Shown: piece by piece, positions 53,956 through 62,525 of the stretch | Layout of the letters: every line of letters begins with the position of its first letter | Position numbering within the stretch: position 1 is the stretch's first letter | Assembly: GCF_017875645.1 (NCBI RefSeq) | Contig: NZ_JAGGMR010000001.1 | Location: 2,976,001 to 3,040,000 of the forward strand | Direction: 5' to 3' | Length of the DNA: 64,000 nt | From: Nocardia goodfellowii | GTDB taxonomy: Bacteria; Actinomycetota; Actinomycetes; Mycobacteriales; Mycobacteriaceae | The notes under the pieces: generated by a model | What the model saw: only the letters and a program-made list of their open reading frames with translations | What the model was told of the DNA's origin: nothing | The model's database searches: none | Made by a program: the position numbers and the translations under genes

Positions 53956-54282
53956 TCAGGGCAATTCGGGGCCGATCGCGTCGCGTGCGGTGAGGCGGCC
54001 GCCACCCCAGCCGAGGGCTTTGCGGTAGCTGCCGAGCAGGCCGTGCTCGATCAGGTGCCGCTCGTCGCGTTGCGGGTCGTCCGGCGGCAACGGCGTGGTG
54101 CGCGGCGCGACGAACAGGGCGTCGACGGGGCAGTACGCCTCGCACAGGAAGCAGGTCTGGCAGTCCGATTGCCGCGCGAGGACCGGGATTCCGTCCGGGC
54201 CGCGGTCGAAGACGCGGGTGGGGCAGACCTCGACGCACTTGTCGCATTCGATGCAGCGGTCGGCGGAGACGAGTTCGATCAT
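53956..54282 (-). CDS. 4Fe-4S dicluster ferredoxin, partner of the flavoprotein
   Basis: A 108-residue ferredoxin with two cluster-binding motifs: CIECDKCVEVCPTRVF and CQTCFLCEAYCPVDALF. The order and spacing are close to AprB-type or 2[4Fe-4S] electron carriers. ATG 54282 overlaps the flavoprotein stop (ATGA), so the two are translationally coupled and very probably form one complex, with electrons passing between the FAD and the iron-sulfur clusters. The C-terminal ~45 residues form a tail (LGSYRKALGWGGGRLT) that may wrap around the partner, as in AprB. Confidence 0.87.
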   Translation of the reverse strand: MIELVSADRCIECDKCVEVCPTRVFDRGPDGIPVLARQSDCQTCFLCEAYCPVDALFVAPRTTPLPPDDPQRDERHLIEHGLLGSYRKALGWGGGRLTARDAIGPELP

Positions 54283-55853
54283 GCCGGCACCAGCGCCCGG
54301 CGACCGCGGAAGACGGGTTCGGGAGTGGTCCAGATATCGTCGAGGCCACCGGTGAGCAGCCGGTAGTGCTGCGCGGGGTCGAGATCGGGGAAATCCTGGC
54401 GCCGGGCCATGCCGCGGGATTCGGTGCGGGCCAAGGCCGCGGTGTACATCCAGCGGGCGTGCGCGGTCATCGCCGCCGCCGAACGAGCCTTCGAGGTGTC
54501 GGGTGCGGACAGGCCCGATCGGGCCTGCCGCCACAGCTCGTTCAGGGTGGCCAGGGCGGGCCGCAGCCGGTCACCGTGGCGCAGGTAGTTCTTGTCGTAG
54601 GGCAGCACCTCGGCCTGAACCGCCGCGACCAGGTCCGCCGGTCGCAGCTCGGCGTCGGGCCGGTCCAGCGGGCGCACACCAGCGCCACCGGCGCCGAGGC
54701 GGGGGCGCGGCACCGAATCCCGTTGCCGCAGTGCGTAACCACCCGCGCCGGTCCCCGCCCAAATGCCCGAGGACATGGCCCAGGCGGCATTGTGGCTACC
54801 GCCGCCGGTGAAGCCGCCGCAGATCAGCTCGCGGGTGGCGACATCACCGGCCACGTACAGGCCCGGCACGCTGGTCGAGCAGTCCGGGCCCGTGATCCGG
54901 ACGCCGCCGGTGCCGCGAACGGTGCCCTCGAGCAGCAGGGTGACCGGGAAGCGGTCGGTGAAGGGATCGATGCCGAGCCGGTCGAAGGTGAGGAAGAAAT
55001 TCGGCTGGCCGCGGCGCATGGCCTGCCGCTGAGCCGCGTCGGCGCGATCGAGAGTGCAGTACACCGGTTCGGTCAGCAGCGCCTTGGCGATCGGGGTCCG
55101 GGCCTTGCCGGAGGCGCCCGCCAGCGGTTCACCGCTGCCCAGATAGAAGGTGGCGAAGGAGTAGTAGGCGGTCTTGGTGACCGAGGTGAATTCCGGGGCG
55201 ATCGCGTAGGCGTTGGAGAACTCCATGCCCGACAGCTCGGCGCCCGCCTCGACCGCCATGAGCGCGCCGTCACCGGTATTCACGTTGCAGCCCAGGGTTT
55301 TCGAGAGAAACGCGCAGCCGCCGGTGGCGAGTACGACCGCCGCCGCCGCGACGTCGATCCGGGTGCCGTCGGCCAGGCGTTGCAGCCGGGCGCCCGCGAC
55401 CGCGCCGTAGGGATCGACGAGCAGTTCCACCGCGGGGGAGTGATCGAGAATGCGCACACCGGCGCGTTGCACCCGAAGCCGTTGGCGCTTCATGTAATCG
55501 GGACCTTGGACCCCGGTGCGGATCTGCTGCCCGTCGGGTCCGACCGGGAACGGGTAGCGGCCGTCGGTCGCGAGTTCATCGACCCGGTCGTAGGTTTCGT
55601 CGAGCACCCGCGCCATCCATTCGCGGTCGGCCAGATAGCCGCCCAGACCTTCGCGGCTCGCCATCGCCCGCTCACGAAGCTCGGGCTCCGGCCGGACATA
55701 CCAGATTCCGGTGCCCGCGGCGGCGGTAGCGCCGCTGCTGCCGCAGAAACCCTTGTCCGCCAGCAGGACCGAGGCGCCGGTGGCCGCGGCCTTCAGCGCG
55801 GCCCAGGTTCCGGCGGGTCCACCGCCGAGGACGAGCACGTCTGTTTCGATCAT
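54279..55853 (-). CDS. FAD-dependent oxidoreductase (AprA/fumarate-reductase flavoprotein type)
   Basis: A 524-residue flavoprotein of the succinate dehydrogenase/fumarate reductase/adenylylsulfate reductase superfamily. DVLVLGGGPAGTWAALKAA binds FAD, SSGATAAAGTGIW and VVLATGGCAFLSKTLGCNVN follow, and GLYVAGDVATRELICGGFTG is the second FAD motif. With the adjacent ferredoxin it mirrors the AprA-AprB arrangement. ATG 55853 overlaps the MFS stop. An open frame continues upstream to 57101 but only as a shadow of the MFS gene. In an organosulfur operon it may oxidise or reduce a sulfur intermediate such as sulfite; that is inference. Confidence 0.86.
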   Translation of the reverse strand: MIETDVLVLGGGPAGTWAALKAAATGASVLLADKGFCGSSGATAAAGTGIWYVRPEPELRERAMASREGLGGYLADREWMARVLDETYDRVDELATDGRYPFPVGPDGQQIRTGVQGPDYMKRQRLRVQRAGVRILDHSPAVELLVDPYGAVAGARLQRLADGTRIDVAAAAVVLATGGCAFLSKTLGCNVNTGDGALMAVEAGAELSGMEFSNAYAIAPEFTSVTKTAYYSFATFYLGSGEPLAGASGKARTPIAKALLTEPVYCTLDRADAAQRQAMRRGQPNFFLTFDRLGIDPFTDRFPVTLLLEGTVRGTGGVRITGPDCSTSVPGLYVAGDVATRELICGGFTGGGSHNAAWAMSSGIWAGTGAGGYALRQRDSVPRPRLGAGGAGVRPLDRPDAELRPADLVAAVQAEVLPYDKNYLRHGDRLRPALATLNELWRQARSGLSAPDTSKARSAAAMTAHARWMYTAALARTESRGMARRQDFPDLDPAQHYRLLTGGLDDIWTTPEPVFRGRRALVPA

Positions 55854-57185: not shown

Positions 57186-58526
57186 TCACGCGCTCACTTC
57201 GGTGCGCACCGCCGCGAATTGACTTTCGACCGGTCCGAGCCCGTAATGCCCACGCAGAGTGTCGGATTCGTAGTCGGCGCGGAACAGGCCGCGCTCCTGC
57301 AAGATCGGCACGACCTTGTCCACGAAGTCCTCCAGACCGCCCGGCAGGAACGGCGGCATGATGTTGAAGCCGTCGGCCGCACCACCCTCGAACCAGGCCT
57401 GCAGTTCGTCGGCGATCTGTGCCGGGGTCCCCGCGAACGAGCGGTGCCCGCGGCCGCCGCCGAGCTTGCCGATGAGCTGGCGCACGGTCAGATTCTCGGT
57501 CTCGGCCAGTTCTTTGACCAGCAGGAATCGGCTCTTTCCGCCTTCGATCTCGGTGACCGAGGGTAGCGGCGGCAGCGGTGCGTCCAGGGCGTGCTGGGTC
57601 AGGTCGACGCCGAGCAGGCGGGAGAGCTGGCTCAGGGCGTAGTCCGGGGAGATCAGGTCGGTGAACTCCTGCTCCAGCGCGTTGGCCTGCGCCTCGGTGT
57701 CGGCGATGTAGGGCACCAGGCCGGGCAGCACCTTCAGATCGTCGGCCGAGCGCCCGTATTTGGGCAGCCGCGACTTCAGGTCGCGGTAGAACGCCTGCCC
57801 TTCCTCGAGCGTGCGCTGCGCGGTGAACACGGCCTCGGCGTACTGCGCCGCGAATTCCTTTCCAGCCTCGGAAGATCCGGCCTGCACCAGCAACGGGCGG
57901 CCCTGCGGGCTGCGCGGTGAGTTCAGCGGCCCGCGGACCTTGAAGCGCGGGCCGTCGTAGTCGAGGGTGTGCACTTTGTCCGGGTCGGCGAAGACGCCCG
58001 CTTCCTCGTCCAGCACGATCGCGTCGGATTCCCAGCTGTCCCACAGCCGCACGGCTAGATCGACGAATTCCTGAGCTCGCTCGTAGCGGCGGGCGTGCTC
58101 GGGGATCGCGTCGTAGCCGAAGTTGAACGCCTCCTCCTCGCTGCCGGAGGTGACGATGTTCCAGCCGGCCCGGCCGCCGCTGATGTGATCGAGCGAGGCG
58201 AATTTGCGGGCCAGGTTGAAGGGTTCGTTGTATGTGGTGGACGCGGTCGCGATCAGCCCGACCTTGGAGGTGGCGGCCGCGATCGCGGCCAGCAAGGTCA
58301 CCGGCTCGAAGACAGCGAGGGTGTTGCGCTTGATCCGCGGGCCGACCGCGAGGCCGTCGGCGAAGAACACCGAGTCCAGCTTGCCGCGTTCGGCGATGCG
58401 GCCGAGTTCCTGAAAGTGCGCGACATCGAGCACGGCGGGTGCTTCGGTGCGCGGGTGCCGCCAGGCGGCCTCGTGGTGGCCGACGCCCATCAGGAAGGCG
58501 TTGATGTGGAACTGCTTGGGAGACAT
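57186..58526 (-). CDS. FMN-dependent monooxygenase, NtaA/SnaA/DszA family
   Basis: A 446-residue two-component-type luciferase-like monooxygenase. HINAFLMGVGHHEAAWRHP at the start, SVFFADGLAVGP, LDHISGGRAGWNIVTSGSEE (the family signature for NtaA/DszA/SfnG-like enzymes) and LLVQAGSSEAGKEFAAQYAE are visible. Such enzymes use reduced FMN and oxygen to cleave C-S or C-N bonds, e.g. sulfones, dimethyl sulfide or nitrilotriacetate. AGGAAC lies 7 nt before ATG 58526. Encoded downstream of the ABC importer; a separate flavin reductase is needed and is not adjacent. Confidence 0.88.
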   Translation of the reverse strand: MSPKQFHINAFLMGVGHHEAAWRHPRTEAPAVLDVAHFQELGRIAERGKLDSVFFADGLAVGPRIKRNTLAVFEPVTLLAAIAAATSKVGLIATASTTYNEPFNLARKFASLDHISGGRAGWNIVTSGSEEEAFNFGYDAIPEHARRYERAQEFVDLAVRLWDSWESDAIVLDEEAGVFADPDKVHTLDYDGPRFKVRGPLNSPRSPQGRPLLVQAGSSEAGKEFAAQYAEAVFTAQRTLEEGQAFYRDLKSRLPKYGRSADDLKVLPGLVPYIADTEAQANALEQEFTDLISPDYALSQLSRLLGVDLTQHALDAPLPPLPSVTEIEGGKSRFLLVKELAETENLTVRQLIGKLGGGRGHRSFAGTPAQIADELQAWFEGGAADGFNIMPPFLPGGLEDFVDKVVPILQERGLFRADYESDTLRGHYGLGPVESQFAAVRTEVSA

Positions 58527-58544: not shown

Positions 58545-59423
58545 TCAGGAGTTGGTCTGGACGCGCCAGCGGGAGAAGCGGCGCTCCAGCGTGACGAGCA
58601 CGCCGTTGAAGGTGAGCCCGAGCAGCGAGATGGCGAGAATGCCCGCGTACATGTTCGGGATCTGGAAGTTCTGCTGAGCGGCGGTGATCAGGTAGCCGAG
58701 ACCAGCTCGGGCGCCGACCATTTCGGCGGCCAGCAGCACCAGGATGGAACTGGCGGCGGCCATCCGCAGACCGGTGAAGATCGACGGGATGGCGGCGGGC
58801 AGGATCACCTTCTGGAACAGCCGGATCGGCCGCAGGCCGAGGGACACCGCCGATTTGACGAGCAGTGGATCGACCGTGCGGACACCGGTGATGGTGTTCA
58901 GCAGAATCGGGAACGAGCTGGCGTAGACGACCAGCGCGACCTTCGAGGTCTCGCCGATGCCCAAAATCAGCACGAACACCGGCAGCAGCGCCAGCGCGGC
59001 GGTGTTGCGGAACAGCTCGAGGATCGGATTCAGCAACTCCGAAACCGGTTTGTACCAGGCGATCGCGATACCCAGGGGCACGGCGATCACCAGCGCGATA
59101 CCGAAACCGGTGACCGAGCGTCCCAGGCTGGTGGACACGTGGTTCCACATCTCACCGCTGCGCACCAGGTCGACGAAGGCTTCGGCGACGACGGTGAACG
59201 GCGGCAGGAATACCTCGTCCACCAGCCCGGCGGCGGGGGCGAACTGCCACAGCAGCAGGAACGCGGCGATGGCCAGGAACGGTTTGGTCACCCGCCAGGT
59301 CAGTTGCCGGGCGGCCACCAGCGCACGCTGTGACATTGCGGGAGAACGTGTTTCGTCCCGCTGATAGGTGGTCGCTACCCTGCTGCGGACGGGCGGCTCG
59401 ACTAGTTCCACTGCGCTAGACAT
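58545..59423 (-). CDS. ABC transporter permease (SsuC/TauC-like)
   Basis: A 292-residue permease with about six helices (AIAAFLLLWQFAPAAGLVDE near the N-terminus) and the EAA loop AVSLGLRPIRLFQKVILPAA that contacts the ATPase. It belongs to the nitrate/sulfonate/taurine importer class. ATG 59423 overlaps the ATPase stop by 8 nt. The first ~40 residues are a cytoplasmic tail. The upstream in-frame extension to 59585 is rejected because it lies inside the ATPase gene. Confidence 0.9.
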   Translation of the reverse strand: MSSAVELVEPPVRSRVATTYQRDETRSPAMSQRALVAARQLTWRVTKPFLAIAAFLLLWQFAPAAGLVDEVFLPPFTVVAEAFVDLVRSGEMWNHVSTSLGRSVTGFGIALVIAVPLGIAIAWYKPVSELLNPILELFRNTAALALLPVFVLILGIGETSKVALVVYASSFPILLNTITGVRTVDPLLVKSAVSLGLRPIRLFQKVILPAAIPSIFTGLRMAAASSILVLLAAEMVGARAGLGYLITAAQQNFQIPNMYAGILAISLLGLTFNGVLVTLERRFSRWRVQTNS

Positions 59424-60276
59424 GACTCGGCCTTTCGGTGCGTGCTTCGGCGGAGGTGGCGTTCTCGGTACCGGATTCGAGCTCCAGGCCCTGCGCGCGT
59501 TCGACCTCGCTGCGCAACAGGCTCCAGATCTGGTGCCGGTAGGCGCGGAAGGCCTCGGTGGAGCGGATGTCCTCGTCGCCCGCACGGGCGATGTCCACCT
59601 CGACGACGGCCTTGACCCGGCCGGGCCGGGAGGTGAGCACGGCGACCCGTTGCCCCAGATACACCGCCTCGTCGATGCCGTGGGTGATGAACAGGATCGT
59701 CTTGCCGGTGGCCTTCCAGATCCGTAACAGCTCGTCCTGCAACGACTCCCGGGTCTGGGCGTCCAGCGCCGCGAATGGTTCGTCCATCAGCAGAACCTCC
59801 GGATCGAAGGCGAGGCTGCGCGCGATAGCGACGCGCTGCTTCATGCCGCCGGAGAGTTCGTGCGGGTAGCGGTCGCCGAAACCGGTGAGGCCCACCAGTT
59901 CCAGGTACTCCTCGGCACGGGCCCGACGCTCTCTACGGCGGAGACCCTTTGCCTCCAAGCCGAATTCGATGTTGGCCCGGGCGGTGCGCCAAGGGAAGAG
60001 GGCGTACTGCTGGAAGACGATGCCGCGGTCCAGTCCGGGGCCGGTGACCGGGACGCCGTCCAGCAGGATCTCGCCCGAACTCGGCTTGGTCAGCCCGCCC
60101 AGCAGGTCCAGCAGCGTGGACTTGCCCGAGCCGCTGGGTCCGACGAGGACCAGGAATTCACCGGCGCGCACGTCCAGCGAGATCTCCTCGATGGCGGTGA
60201 AGGTGTCGTTCGCGCCGCGAACCGGGAATCGTTTGCTCACCCGGTTGATCGCGAGTTTCGGAGTGCGGTCGCTCAT
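59416..60276 (-). CDS. ABC transporter ATP-binding protein (SsuB/TauB-like)
   Basis: A 286-residue nucleotide-binding subunit. Walker A VGPSGSGKSTLLDLLGG, Q-loop FQQYALFPWRTARANIEFGL, signature LSGGMKQRVAIARSL, Walker B VLLMDEPFAALDAQTRESLQ and switch His in LFITHGIDEAVYLG, all intact. The pattern LFPWRTARANIEFGLEAKG is typical of the sulfonate/nitrate group. ATG 60276 overlaps the binding-protein stop (ATGA). It powers uptake of the substrate caught by the lipoprotein encoded upstream. Confidence 0.93.
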   Translation of the reverse strand: MSDRTPKLAINRVSKRFPVRGANDTFTAIEEISLDVRAGEFLVLVGPSGSGKSTLLDLLGGLTKPSSGEILLDGVPVTGPGLDRGIVFQQYALFPWRTARANIEFGLEAKGLRRRERRARAEEYLELVGLTGFGDRYPHELSGGMKQRVAIARSLAFDPEVLLMDEPFAALDAQTRESLQDELLRIWKATGKTILFITHGIDEAVYLGQRVAVLTSRPGRVKAVVEVDIARAGDEDIRSTEAFRAYRHQIWSLLRSEVERAQGLELESGTENATSAEARTERPSHV

Positions 60277-61352
60277 TTCGCCGCCACCACCTCTCCGGTG
60301 GGGCCGCTGGCGGGTTGGTAGGTGCCGTTGGCGTACGGGTTCAACTTGTTGGTGAACAGGTCGGTGCTCTTCAGCTGGTCCTTCTTCAGCTCGCCGTTGC
60401 GGACCAGCCAGTCGATCCAGATCTGGATCTCCTTCTCCTGCACCACCGCGCCGGGCGTCGGCAGACCGGAGCTCTTCCAATACTTCAGCAGGTCGGTGTT
60501 CTCGTTGCGCCCGCGCTCGGCGATGATCGAGCTGAACCGCGCCAGCACCTCCTCGCGCGGGGTGACCTGCAGCCAGCGGGTGGCGCGAGCGGTGCCCTGC
60601 ACGAAGTCCTGCACGGCGTCGGCGTTCTTGGCGAGGAACTCGTTCCGGAACACATAGGTGCCGTAGCTGGCCTGCCCGAAGATCGCGGTATCGGTGTAGA
60701 GCGGATGGATGCCGCCGCGTTCCAGGGCCGAATCCCGGAACACCTGGCCCAGGGTCCCGACCTCGACCTGGCCCTTGCGCAGCGCGTCCTCGGTGTTGGC
60801 CGGCGGGACGACAAGCAGTTGAACCTGCTTGATCTCGTCCTCGGTCAAACCTTCCTTGTGCAGCCATTCCCGAGTGATGAACTCGTGGTGCGCGCCGAGG
60901 GTGTTGACCGCCACCTTCTTGCCGATCAGATCCCGCGCGGTCTTGATGGGGGAGTCGTCGCGGACGTAGTAGCCGGTGAAGGTCTTGTCGTCCGAACCGT
61001 AGGAACTCAGCACCGAGGTGACCTTCGCGCCACCGGCGATCAGCTTCACCACCGCGCCGTTGAACGCGCTGCCGAACTCGACCTGGTTGGTGGCCGCCGC
61101 CTGGATGTTGGCCGGACCGCTGGTGGTGTCGCCCTCCCACCGCAGCGAGATCTTGGTGAAATAGCCGAGGTCCGCGGCCAATTCGTAGGGGGTGACCTGG
61201 CCGGTGCTGCCCTGGTAGCGCAGCACGGTCTTGCCGTCGGCGGTCGTGCCCGCGTCGGACCTGCCGCACGCGGTGAGCACGGACACGCTGGTGAGCAGGG
61301 CCAAAGTGGCGGCGATCGCGCGGTGTCGTCGCCGTGGTGCGGTGAAGCGCAT
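60273..61352 (-). CDS. ABC transporter substrate-binding lipoprotein (SsuA/NMT1-like)
   Basis: A 359-residue extracytoplasmic binding protein. Signal peptide with lipobox LTAC (Cys29), then RYQGSTGQVTPYELAADLGYF and the periplasmic-binding-protein type II fold (FGSAFNGAVVKLIAGGAKVT; DLIGKKVAVNTLGAHHEFIT; GQASYGTYVFRNEFLAKNAD). Members bind sulfonates, taurine, nitrate or thiamine precursors. AAGGAAC lies 5 nt before ATG 61352. It is the first structural gene of the operon and follows the sulfur leader peptide by 118 nt, which points to a sulfur compound as ligand. Confidence 0.9.
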   Translation of the reverse strand: MRFTAPRRRHRAIAATLALLTSVSVLTACGRSDAGTTADGKTVLRYQGSTGQVTPYELAADLGYFTKISLRWEGDTTSGPANIQAAATNQVEFGSAFNGAVVKLIAGGAKVTSVLSSYGSDDKTFTGYYVRDDSPIKTARDLIGKKVAVNTLGAHHEFITREWLHKEGLTEDEIKQVQLLVVPPANTEDALRKGQVEVGTLGQVFRDSALERGGIHPLYTDTAIFGQASYGTYVFRNEFLAKNADAVQDFVQGTARATRWLQVTPREEVLARFSSIIAERGRNENTDLLKYWKSSGLPTPGAVVQEKEIQIWIDWLVRNGELKKDQLKSTDLFTNKLNPYANGTYQPASGPTGEVVAAK

Positions 61353-61436
61353 GGTGTTCCTTCAGGATGAAAAATGCTGCCGCGCACGTGAAAAGGGCAT
61401 GCGGCGGCCGAGGTGTCGAGGGTCTGGACAAGGGGG

Positions 61437-61460
61437 CCGGTCCACGGAATCCGCGGCCGG
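61437..61460 (-). promoter_or_regulatory. Hairpin after the leader peptide
   Basis: Read on the minus strand, CCGGCCGCGG-ATT-CCGTGG-A-CCGG forms a 10-bp stem with one bulged A, 10 nt after the leader stop and about 85 nt before the first structural gene. No T-tract follows, so it may act as part of a pause or antiterminator, or by Rho-dependent control. Confidence 0.4.
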
Positions 61461-61470
61461 ACGCGAAGCG

Positions 61471-61548
61471 TCAGAGTCGACAGATCCCGTGCGGCACCCG
61501 CATGAGGTCGATCGCGCGGCGGCGGATCAGCGCTGTGGATGTCAACAC
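61471..61548 (-). CDS. Cysteine-containing sulfur leader peptide (25 codons)
   Basis: A 25-codon frame starting at GTG 61548 with AGGAAG 8 nt upstream (TTG 61545 is next) and ending in TGA at 61471. Its C-terminal 17 residues read RRRAIDLMRVPHGICRL. This matches the pattern R-R-x-x-I-D-L-x-R-V-x-x-x-x-C-R of actinobacterial 'putative leader peptides' that precede sulfur-assimilation and sulfonate ABC-transporter operons. Ribosome stalling at the Cys codon (TGT) when cysteine is low is thought to let transcription or translation of the operon proceed. The gene was not found by length but by this motif. Confidence 0.8.
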   Translation of the reverse strand: MLTSTALIRRRAIDLMRVPHGICRL

Positions 61549-61662
61549 GGTGGGTACTTCCTGGTCTGGATCGGAATGCGGGCGGGGCCCGTGGCTTTCA
61601 TGGTGTGGGCGCGCCGGGTGCCAGACAACGGCCATTCCACATTGTGAAAATCAGGGTGAGTT
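61549..61662 (-). promoter_or_regulatory. Promoter region of the organosulfur operon
   Basis: The 114 bases between the IclR stop and the leader peptide must hold the operon promoter unless transcription continues from iclR. I see no consensus -35/-10. TTTTCACAATGTGGAA (minus strand, near 61630-61645) has the symmetric core TTCACA-ATGTGGAA, a possible regulator site. Confidence 0.3.
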
Positions 61663-62379
61663 TTACTCGGGTGTGCTGTTCTGGACGACGGAGCCGATCC
61701 GCACCGCGAAATGCTGCATGGCCGGCAAGATCTCGCGGACCAGTTCGTCGGTGAGCCGCGCCGAGCGCGCCTGCACGCTGAGCGCGCCCCAGACCTGCCG
61801 GCCCGGACCGAAGACCGGGACCGCGACGGCCCGCAGCGGGTCCGCCACGGCGATCTCGTGCAGCGCGAAACCCTTGCGCCGCACCAGGTCCAGGTCCGGG
61901 ACGCGCCGCTGGTCGGCCGGCGTGTAGGCGAGCAGGGCGTGGCCGGCCGCGCTGGACCGCAGCGGCTGCCGGGGCCGGGGCAGCTGGTTGTTGCAGAACA
62001 GCACCGGAGGACGTGCCTGCAGGATCGTCACGGCGTCGCCGGCATCGATCACGCTGAGATTGGCCGTGATCTTGATCCCCGCTGCCAGCGCGTACATGTG
62101 CGGAGCGGCGGAATCGATGCCGAGCCGGGTCAGCGCCGGGCGCGCCAGAGTCGCCAGGCCCTGGCCCACGCGATAGCGATCGGTAGCCGGATCCTGCTCC
62201 AGCAGCCGCCCGCGCACCAACGCCTGGGCCAGCCGATGCGCGGTGCTCACCGGCACCCCGGCCAGGTGAGCGAGCTCACTGAGGGAGAACTCGGGGTCCT
62301 CGCCCTCGAAACAATTGAGCAGATGAATGGCTCGCTCGACGGCTTGTGACCCCGAACGAGGCTGATCGGTACTGGTCAT
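61663..62379 (-). CDS. IclR-family transcriptional regulator
   Basis: A 238-residue regulator: winged HTH at ~12-75 (FSLSELAHLAGVPVSTAHRL; GRLLEQDPATDRYRVGQGL) and a C-terminal IclR effector domain (LPRPRQPLRSSAAGHALLAY; VAVPVFGPGRQVWGALSVQA). ATG 62379 begins MTSTDQPRSG; an in-frame extension to 62457 is unlikely. It is upstream of and on the same strand as the organosulfur operon (114 nt to the leader peptide), so it probably controls the operon in response to the substrate or a breakdown product. Confidence 0.88.
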   Translation of the reverse strand: MTSTDQPRSGSQAVERAIHLLNCFEGEDPEFSLSELAHLAGVPVSTAHRLAQALVRGRLLEQDPATDRYRVGQGLATLARPALTRLGIDSAAPHMYALAAGIKITANLSVIDAGDAVTILQARPPVLFCNNQLPRPRQPLRSSAAGHALLAYTPADQRRVPDLDLVRRKGFALHEIAVADPLRAVAVPVFGPGRQVWGALSVQARSARLTDELVREILPAMQHFAVRIGSVVQNSTPE

Positions 62380-62417
62380 GGGTAGAGCCTCGGCGCTCGG
62401 GCCCGCGCTGCACAGGG

Positions 62418-62438
62418 TTAGACGCCCGATGCATCTAA
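62418..62438. promoter_or_regulatory. Inverted repeat upstream of iclR-type gene
   Basis: TTAGA (62418-62422) and TCTAA (62434-62438) are inverted arms 11 nt apart, with the inner palindrome GATGCATC at 62428-62435 adjoining. They lie 39-59 nt before the regulator start; a plausible self-regulatory site. Confidence 0.3.
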
Positions 62439-62525
62439 TTGGGTCGACGTCCAACAAGCGCCCCGCACGGGTACTGCAGCCCGGCCGAGGTCTACGTTGA
62501 GCATCTGAACAGCCCGATTTGCGGT

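Follow-up and report, generated by a model that had tools for sequence, protein, structure and literature searches.

A conserved single-cysteine leader peptide, resembling actinobacterial sulfur leaders, precedes a putative organosulfur operon in Nocardia

Organization of the locus

The window, the whole 64,000-nt stretch of Nocardia goodfellowii DNA analyzed here, contains on its minus strand a short open reading frame followed by a gene group that looks like an operon for organosulfur uptake and oxidation. The leader and the genes behind it are as follows.

61471..61548, minus strand: leader peptide ORF of 25 codons, with a GTG start and a TGA stop (sequence, and a core conserved in relatives)
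61480..61482, minus strand: single Cys codon of the leader, TGT, at D+9, nine residues past the conserved Asp
61557..61562, minus strand: Shine-Dalgarno sequence AGGAAG of the leader, 8 nt ahead of the GTG, read from the sequence
60273..61352, minus strand: SsuA-like substrate-binding lipoprotein, the first gene past the leader (TIGR01728, 78.2 bits; NMT1 in Pfam)
59416..60279, minus strand: ABC transporter ATPase (profile matches)
58545..59432, minus strand: ABC transporter permease (profile matches)
57186..58526, minus strand: NtaA/DmoA-family FMN-dependent monooxygenase (TIGR03860, 581 bits, above the cut-off)

The leader frame (61548 to 61471, minus strand) encodes MLTSTALIRRRAIDLMRVPHGICRL. 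A mechanical ORF list runs this frame back to an upstream ATG, which gives 54 codons. The sequence confirms the first-pass annotation in its reading of a frame of 25 codons that has a ribosome-binding site of its own and whose stop lies 118 nt from the ATG (61352) of the SsuA-like gene, and the D+9 Cys is located two codons ahead of that stop. The same annotation had described the importer as SsuABC-type. An SsuA-family binding protein, an ATPase, and a permease are indeed present, but the TIGR01728 score of the binding protein is well under the family cut-off of 163.5 bits, and the importer substrate is putative. A Pfam search with the leader peptide gave no match, and an Rfam search of the region returned a chance MS2-hairpin match and nothing else. 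Farther down the same strand, positions 53956-55835 encode an FAD-binding oxidoreductase (profile matches) and a small protein with, by eye, an IECDKC ferredoxin-like motif; homologues of these genes lie near the importer in many Nocardia loci.

Conservation and selection among Nocardia relatives

Two overlapping sets of loci were compared. In the named-genome set, 41 loci were retrieved with the importer protein, 38 of them from Nocardia, and the leader is present in 35 of the 41, that is, in 35 of the 38 Nocardia loci; it is missing at L029, L031, L034, the Rhodococcus locus, and two Bradyrhizobium loci. In the same-genus set of 150 genomes, the importer protein was found at E 1e-40 or better in 99, and upstream DNA was covered for 110 of the 133 importer matches listed (81 orthologues and 29 of the 52 weaker ones). 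The first-pass annotation had asked for conservation in related Nocardia, and this is what we found: the core is conserved and the leader stands at 69 of the 81 orthologous loci. The more distant loci gave none (0/29, one of them clipped to 61 nt), likewise with a looser pattern, and the reverse strand of these 110 regions yielded no leader match. The leader counts include L010 and L019, which were spotted by eye after a first, looser pattern had missed them.

When both sets were pooled, 69 distinct leaders were obtained, among which 61 different 45-nt cores and 28 different peptide cores occur. The pN/pS ratio is 0.29 in the 15-codon core, as against 0.96 in the preceding 8 codons, and reading the core in the other two frames gives 0.82 and 5.3. 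An ATG or GTG occupies the same column in 52 of the 69 leaders; in the other 17, the 8 N-terminal codons open with neither of these, and part of them may be non-coding there. Codon-level comparison thus indicates that the leader frame is under protein-level selection. The stop lies two codons past the D+9 Cys in 66 of the 69 Nocardia leaders, and at L021 and L104 the frame runs 18 or 34 codons beyond the Cys instead of two.

Six of the twelve leaderless orthologous loci (L089, L091, L095, L097, L099, and L124; L095 is of the same sequence family as L031) contain another kind of short frame, with a TGT TGT pair close to its beginning. It starts about 86-95 nt before the importer-gene mark and extends into the importer gene, out of frame with it. 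This frame is possibly an independent cysteine leader.

Upstream region and the adjacent regulator

Upstream of the leader, three further features were noted.

61663..62457, minus strand: IclR-family regulator gene, just upstream of the leader (Pfam HTH_IclR and IclR_C)
61635..61649, strand not assigned: imperfect palindrome TTTCACAATGTGGAA, candidate operator of the adjacent IclR-type regulator
61600..61628, minus strand: promoter-like TTGTCT-N17-CACCAT, common by eye to the palindrome-matching relatives

The palindrome, which occurs in its strict form at 27 of the 69 distinct leader loci, is probably the operator of the adjacent regulator. A consensus promoter scan of the region found no promoter; from the promoter-like pair, the transcript is predicted to start about 45 nt ahead of the leader. 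The IclR gene is absent within 8 kb (E 1e-20) at no fewer than 11 Nocardia loci that still have the leader. Since these loci, whose upstream DNA differs by eye, keep the leader, the leader is not dependent on the IclR regulator. Among L008, L011-L016, L018-L020, and L024, several lack a nearby IclR gene and have by eye a common upstream block of another kind, GTCGAACTGTTGCTCCCATGC...GGGACAGTG or close to it, and the same leader is kept at the loci with this block.

Relationship to sulfur leader families

The first-pass annotation had placed the peptide in a pattern of actinobacterial sulfur leaders. Its similarity to NF042933 and NF042934 holds, and the D+9 spacing was already contained in that pattern, but both scores are below the curated cut-offs for membership: 19.7 bits against 45 for NF042933 (E 4.9e-4) and 17.2 bits against 27 for NF042934 (E 2.8e-3). 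When the whole genome was searched with NF042934, the window leader ranked fourth at E 0.17, a threshold so loose that some match appears in 10 of 14 unrelated control genomes as well. The three better matches in the genome (E 1e-4 to 0.009), all below the NF042934 cut-off, are as follows.

Leader ending GGCCCLCA: precedes a DUF4395-like and sulfurtransferase pair (by eye)
Leader ending AAHLCR: precedes a symporter (PF00375, by Pfam)
Leader ending CSACCLPGSLR: precedes a sulfite reductase with CysH- and CysD-like genes (by eye)

A profile built from 33 chosen leaders recovered the same four frames at E up to 1.7e-5, with the next match at 0.68. Of these four, the sulfite reductase leader is absent from the profile, whereas the other three belong to it by construction. 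In the alignment of these 33 leaders, the window's included, R (D-4), D, R (D+3), and C (D+9) are invariant. At E 0.01, 141 of 150 genomes from the order have an NF042934 match (126 above the cut-off), as do 17 of 198 genomes drawn from the phylum (11 above the cut-off) and none of the 14 control genomes.

Ten downstream genes from other Actinobacteria, picked by eye, all proved to be sulfur or cysteine genes: sulfurtransferase, nitrite/sulfite reductase, CysC, CysD, SsuA, SsuE, SfnG, serine acetyltransferase, cysteine dioxygenase, and cysteine synthase, the last about 400 nt from its leader and perhaps not the first gene. The window leader is likewise a short ORF ahead of such genes, with the importer substrate being putative. 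By sequence, it resembles the actinobacterial sulfur-type leader peptides and seems to belong with them.

Several leaders (L190, L191, L201, L202, L203, and L211) end in GCVCRPS and lie ahead of what by eye seems to be one gene family. The gene behind L201 is a cysteine dioxygenase (PF05995), whose logic is opposite to that of biosynthetic targets; since it would be expected to respond to a surplus, it fits poorly with a simple rule that low cysteine switches the genes on. Leaders also occur as opposite-strand pairs (G171:C57:40374/40500, G257:C85:4775/4907, G215:C53:51490/51631, G296:C74:28054/28168, and G212:C40:135170/135464), with cores about 58-238 nt apart, apparently back to back ahead of divergent operons.

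Position and codon of the conserved cysteine

The family sample consisted of best-scoring matches, namely 57 loci and 60 places chosen among the matches listed (117 in total). These gave 115 frames (without L184 and L207), of which 112 were kept (L196-L198 were left out as having no Cys or lying within long frames), and merging of two duplicate peptides left 110 distinct leaders from 13 host families. Cys is at D+9 in 108 of the 110, L265 and L268 being the exceptions; 103 of these Cys residues are encoded by TGT and 5 by TGC, a bias absent from the first-pass annotation. At D+1 to D+8, the proportion is reversed (TGT 15, TGC 86); the contrast gives a Fisher value of 5e-36 computed as if the leaders were independent, which they are not because they share ancestry. 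TGT is commoner again at D+10 to D+12 (23 vs 11 TGC), and TGC at D+13 to D+15 (15 vs 1 TGT). In the background, TGT makes up 125 of 701 Cys codons (18%) in long frames around the family loci and 268 of 1175 in the Nocardia loci. For comparison, the Asp codon is GAC in 76 and GAT in 34 of the family leaders.

The 69 distinct Nocardia leaders have TGT at D+9 without exception (69/69), while a neighboring Cys at D+10 is encoded by TGC in 12/12 leaders that have one; their Asp codon is GAC in 40 and GAT in 29. TGT is the majority codon in 12 of the 13 host families, with f14 as the exception (TGT 2 vs TGC 3), and among 71 distinct 13-residue cores, 67 have TGT only, 3 TGC only, and 1 both.

Because the family model may itself favor Cys at D+9, 150 genomes were also searched in a way blind to Cys, by a DNA pattern covering just RRHVDLxR, and 29 of its 30 loci could be parsed (without L349). 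In 20 of the 29 frames, a stop follows within 20 codons; the D+9 Cys is present in 18 of them and missing in L343 and L353. Among the nine longer frames, only one has it. The D+9 codons are 15 TGT and 3 TGC, the latter from one genus of family f16, and the nine Cys codons at other positions are all TGC. In that genus (g39), TGC is used in 3 of 4 leaders with a D+9 Cys, and the sulfurtransferase leader of the window genome itself also has TGC there. UGU at D+9 is thus usual but not obligatory. The TGC-type leaders L341, L342, and L345 (f16) and L226, L233, and L238 (f14) offer a natural contrast against which to judge the UGU rule.

All three tRNA-Cys genes of the genome have the anticodon GCA, and UGU must therefore be decoded by wobble. 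Wobble reading is in general the slower kind, and would be so for UGU here. Judged from conservation, the codon preference suggests a decoding step, and the fixed placement of the R, D, and R residues suggests a role for the nascent chain. Together, they suggest a stall at a wobble-read UGU at a fixed distance from an R-x3-D-L-x-R nascent chain.

An alternative explanation is plain codon-starvation attenuation: at low Cys-tRNA, the ribosome would be delayed at one or several Cys codons close to the stop, whatever the sequence of the peptide. Relatives of the same family do have runs of Cys codons, and a precedent is said to exist in the mycobacterial polycysteine leaders of Canestrari et al. 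2020. However, 50 of the 110 distinct leaders have a single Cys, which is at D+9 in 48 of them, and since plain starvation gives the nascent chain no role, it leaves both this fixed spacing and the four invariant residues unexplained. We consider it unlikely.

The leader might instead be a functional small protein or merely an aid to re-initiation on the next gene, without any sensing. The codon-level selection on the core would agree with a protein product, but the N-terminus is unconstrained, the stop falls 0-7 codons past the D+9 Cys in 108/108 family leaders, the downstream genes tested are confined to sulfur and cysteine metabolism, and a synonymous bias toward TGT would be meaningless for such a product. 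This explanation seems very improbable to us, and a stall at the UGU remains our preferred reading.

The spacer behind the leader

Three features describe the DNA between the leader and the binding-protein gene.

61353..61470, minus strand: spacer from the leader to the binding-protein gene, C 41%, G 25%, candidate Rho-loading region
61437..61460, minus strand: 10-bp hairpin of the first-pass annotation (predicted fold), with no T-run behind it
61370..61408, minus strand: second hairpin (61408-61379) with a 9-nt loop and TTTTT four bases later at 61374-61370, terminator-like in the window

The first-pass annotation had noted the hairpin at 61437-61460 behind the leader. It is present in the predicted fold, but it has no T-run, the relatives' spacers differ, and no such hairpin was seen in them; the folding of the region as a whole is only a little stronger than that of shuffled sequences (z = -1.09, with 24 of 200 doing as well). 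What is supported of that reading overall is a selected leader of the actinobacterial sulfur type, and what is not supported is the hairpin as a working part; the cysteine-dependent attenuation that it read from the leader is inferred. The second hairpin (-15.5 kcal/mol, z = -1.96) lies just ahead of the ribosome-binding site of the importer gene.

Transcription attenuation by an intrinsic terminator in the spacer could draw on this second hairpin with its five T and on the first, which folds too. A narrow scan of this strand of the window, however, found no terminator with loops of 3-8 nt, and missed the second hairpin because its loop is 9 nt long; besides this loop, the candidate has a weak T-run. 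A looser scan showed no enrichment of terminator-like sites over shuffles, either in the Nocardia spacers (6/69 vs 9.3) or behind the family leaders (8/110 vs 10.0), the window being among the loci with a candidate. Attenuation by an intrinsic terminator is, in our judgment, quite improbable. A conserved attenuator fold was set aside, the spacers being by eye too divergent.

We also considered RNA-structure control of translation, in which the leader RNA would form base pairs with the spacer or with the ribosome-binding site of the next gene, and this pairing, not decoding, would preserve the TGT. Complements of the TGT context in the spacer average 4.38 nt, as against 4.04 nt; the value of 4.38 is attained by 2 of 100 shuffle sets. 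For 56 loci, the accessibility of the next ribosome-binding site was predicted (13 of the 69 leaders were left out, having no clear start of the next gene); it rises by more than 0.1 in 16 of the 56 and falls in 2, with a small overall gain from 0.42 to 0.49. On the other hand, the spacer varies widely in sequence and in length (42-176 nt), the window itself shows nil gain (0.38 to 0.39), and the bases around TGT vary unless fixed by the protein: position -3 carries 0.06 bits of information, +5 carries 0.29, +6 carries 0.25, and +3 and +4 carry about 0.6 each, though the preceding base (-1) is C or G with 1.0 bits. Occlusion of the ribosome-binding site is thus a weak candidate, with a small predicted opening that is missing from the window, and so is base pairing as the cause of TGT, given the slight excess of spacer complements. 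We hold RNA-structure control to be improbable.

The composition of the spacer points elsewhere. All 54 spacers tested, that of the window among them, contain more C than G, as do the 60 nt past the stop in 107 of 110 family leaders and 68 of 69 Nocardia leaders; the corresponding figures are 16/28 for leaderless relatives and 8/12 for leaderless orthologues. The DNA ahead of the leader is also C-rich in 60 of the 69 Nocardia leaders. A C-rich, G-poor stretch thus adjoins the leader stop, as is expected of Rho-coupled regulation of the TnaC type, and this composition favors a Rho-type output. Counting against it, besides the C-rich DNA ahead of the leader and in most leaderless orthologues, a ribosome on the UGU would cover just the first bases of the C-rich stretch. 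We favor a Rho-type output, with translational control or the window terminator as alternatives.

A proposed mechanism

We propose that the translating ribosome would hold R-R-R-x-[IV]-D-L-M-R in its exit tunnel on reaching the single UGU. When Cys-tRNA is short, the wobble-read UGU would be decoded slowly, and the nascent chain would deepen the pause. The stalled ribosome would then cover the start of the C-rich stretch past the stop, so that Rho could not end transcription and the operon would be on; for some relatives, opening of the next ribosome-binding site on the stall is predicted as well. When Cys-tRNA is ample, translation would terminate immediately, leaving the C-rich stretch bare and the operon low. 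Taken as a whole, this explanation seems to us a probable one: a cis-acting leader that couples the organosulfur import and oxidation operon to the cysteine supply through a UGU stall and a Rho output. More tentative, and slightly on the doubtful side of an even judgment, is its extension to an Actinobacteria-wide two-part lock, in which a wobble UGU nine residues past Asp acts together with exit-tunnel contacts, one codon may be enough, and the Nocardia leader would represent the minimal single-Cys form.

If true, the explanation would extend leader control of the cysteine type to organosulfur scavenging in Nocardia. It would make testable a question open since 2005, namely the working of actinobacterial cys leaders without obvious terminators, and the D+9/TGT rule may provide a compact signature for annotating sulfur-responsive operons.

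Comparison with known systems

Cysteine-responsive leaders of mycobacteria are already known, as far as the accessible parts of the reports indicate (PMC13236596, PMC9094748). In the accessible part of their study, Seliverstov et al. 2005 (PMC1262725) described candidate cys leader peptides in Actinobacteria without obvious terminators, with Rho proposed as a weak prediction and with runs of Cys codons in the leaders of Mycobacterium, Propionibacterium, and Bifidobacterium; no remark on a fixed spacing or on UGU was found in that part. Neither the UGU bias nor the D+9 spacing came up in the accessible parts of PMC8079986 and PMC11133741. In the portions of the literature that we could reach, the main mycobacterial paper aside, there was no report of the UGU bias, the D+9 spacing, or a Nocardia organosulfur leader, and we provisionally regard all three as new. 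As far as the seen part of PMC1262725 goes, the window leader is like the candidates of 2005 in its position ahead of a sulfur operon and in the lack of an obvious terminator as a family feature, and differs in that those candidates have Cys-codon runs.

Like NF042934 (cis_reg_atten, putative leader peptide) and NF042933 (Ms5788A family Cys-rich leader peptide), the window leader has the L-x-x-R-x3-D-L-x-R core, Cys at D+9, and a position ahead of sulfur genes; unlike them, it has M at D+2 and P-H-G-I before its single Cys, and scores below the cut-offs. Leaderless short ORFs with polycysteine runs reportedly respond to cysteine in mycobacteria, as Canestrari et al. are said to have described in 2020. 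The window leader shares with these a short ORF with a Cys codon ahead of a sulfur operon, but has one Cys codon and no run, its own Shine-Dalgarno sequence with a predicted 5′ leader of about 45 nt from the promoter-like pair, both of which speak against a leaderless start, and an organosulfur importer as its target. TnaC is an arrest peptide with a Rho-dependent output. The arrest that we propose beside a stop, next to a Rho-loading stretch, resembles TnaC in logic alone, with no homology claimed, and differs from it in that the signal here would be charged tRNA, both arrest and Rho being parts of our proposal.
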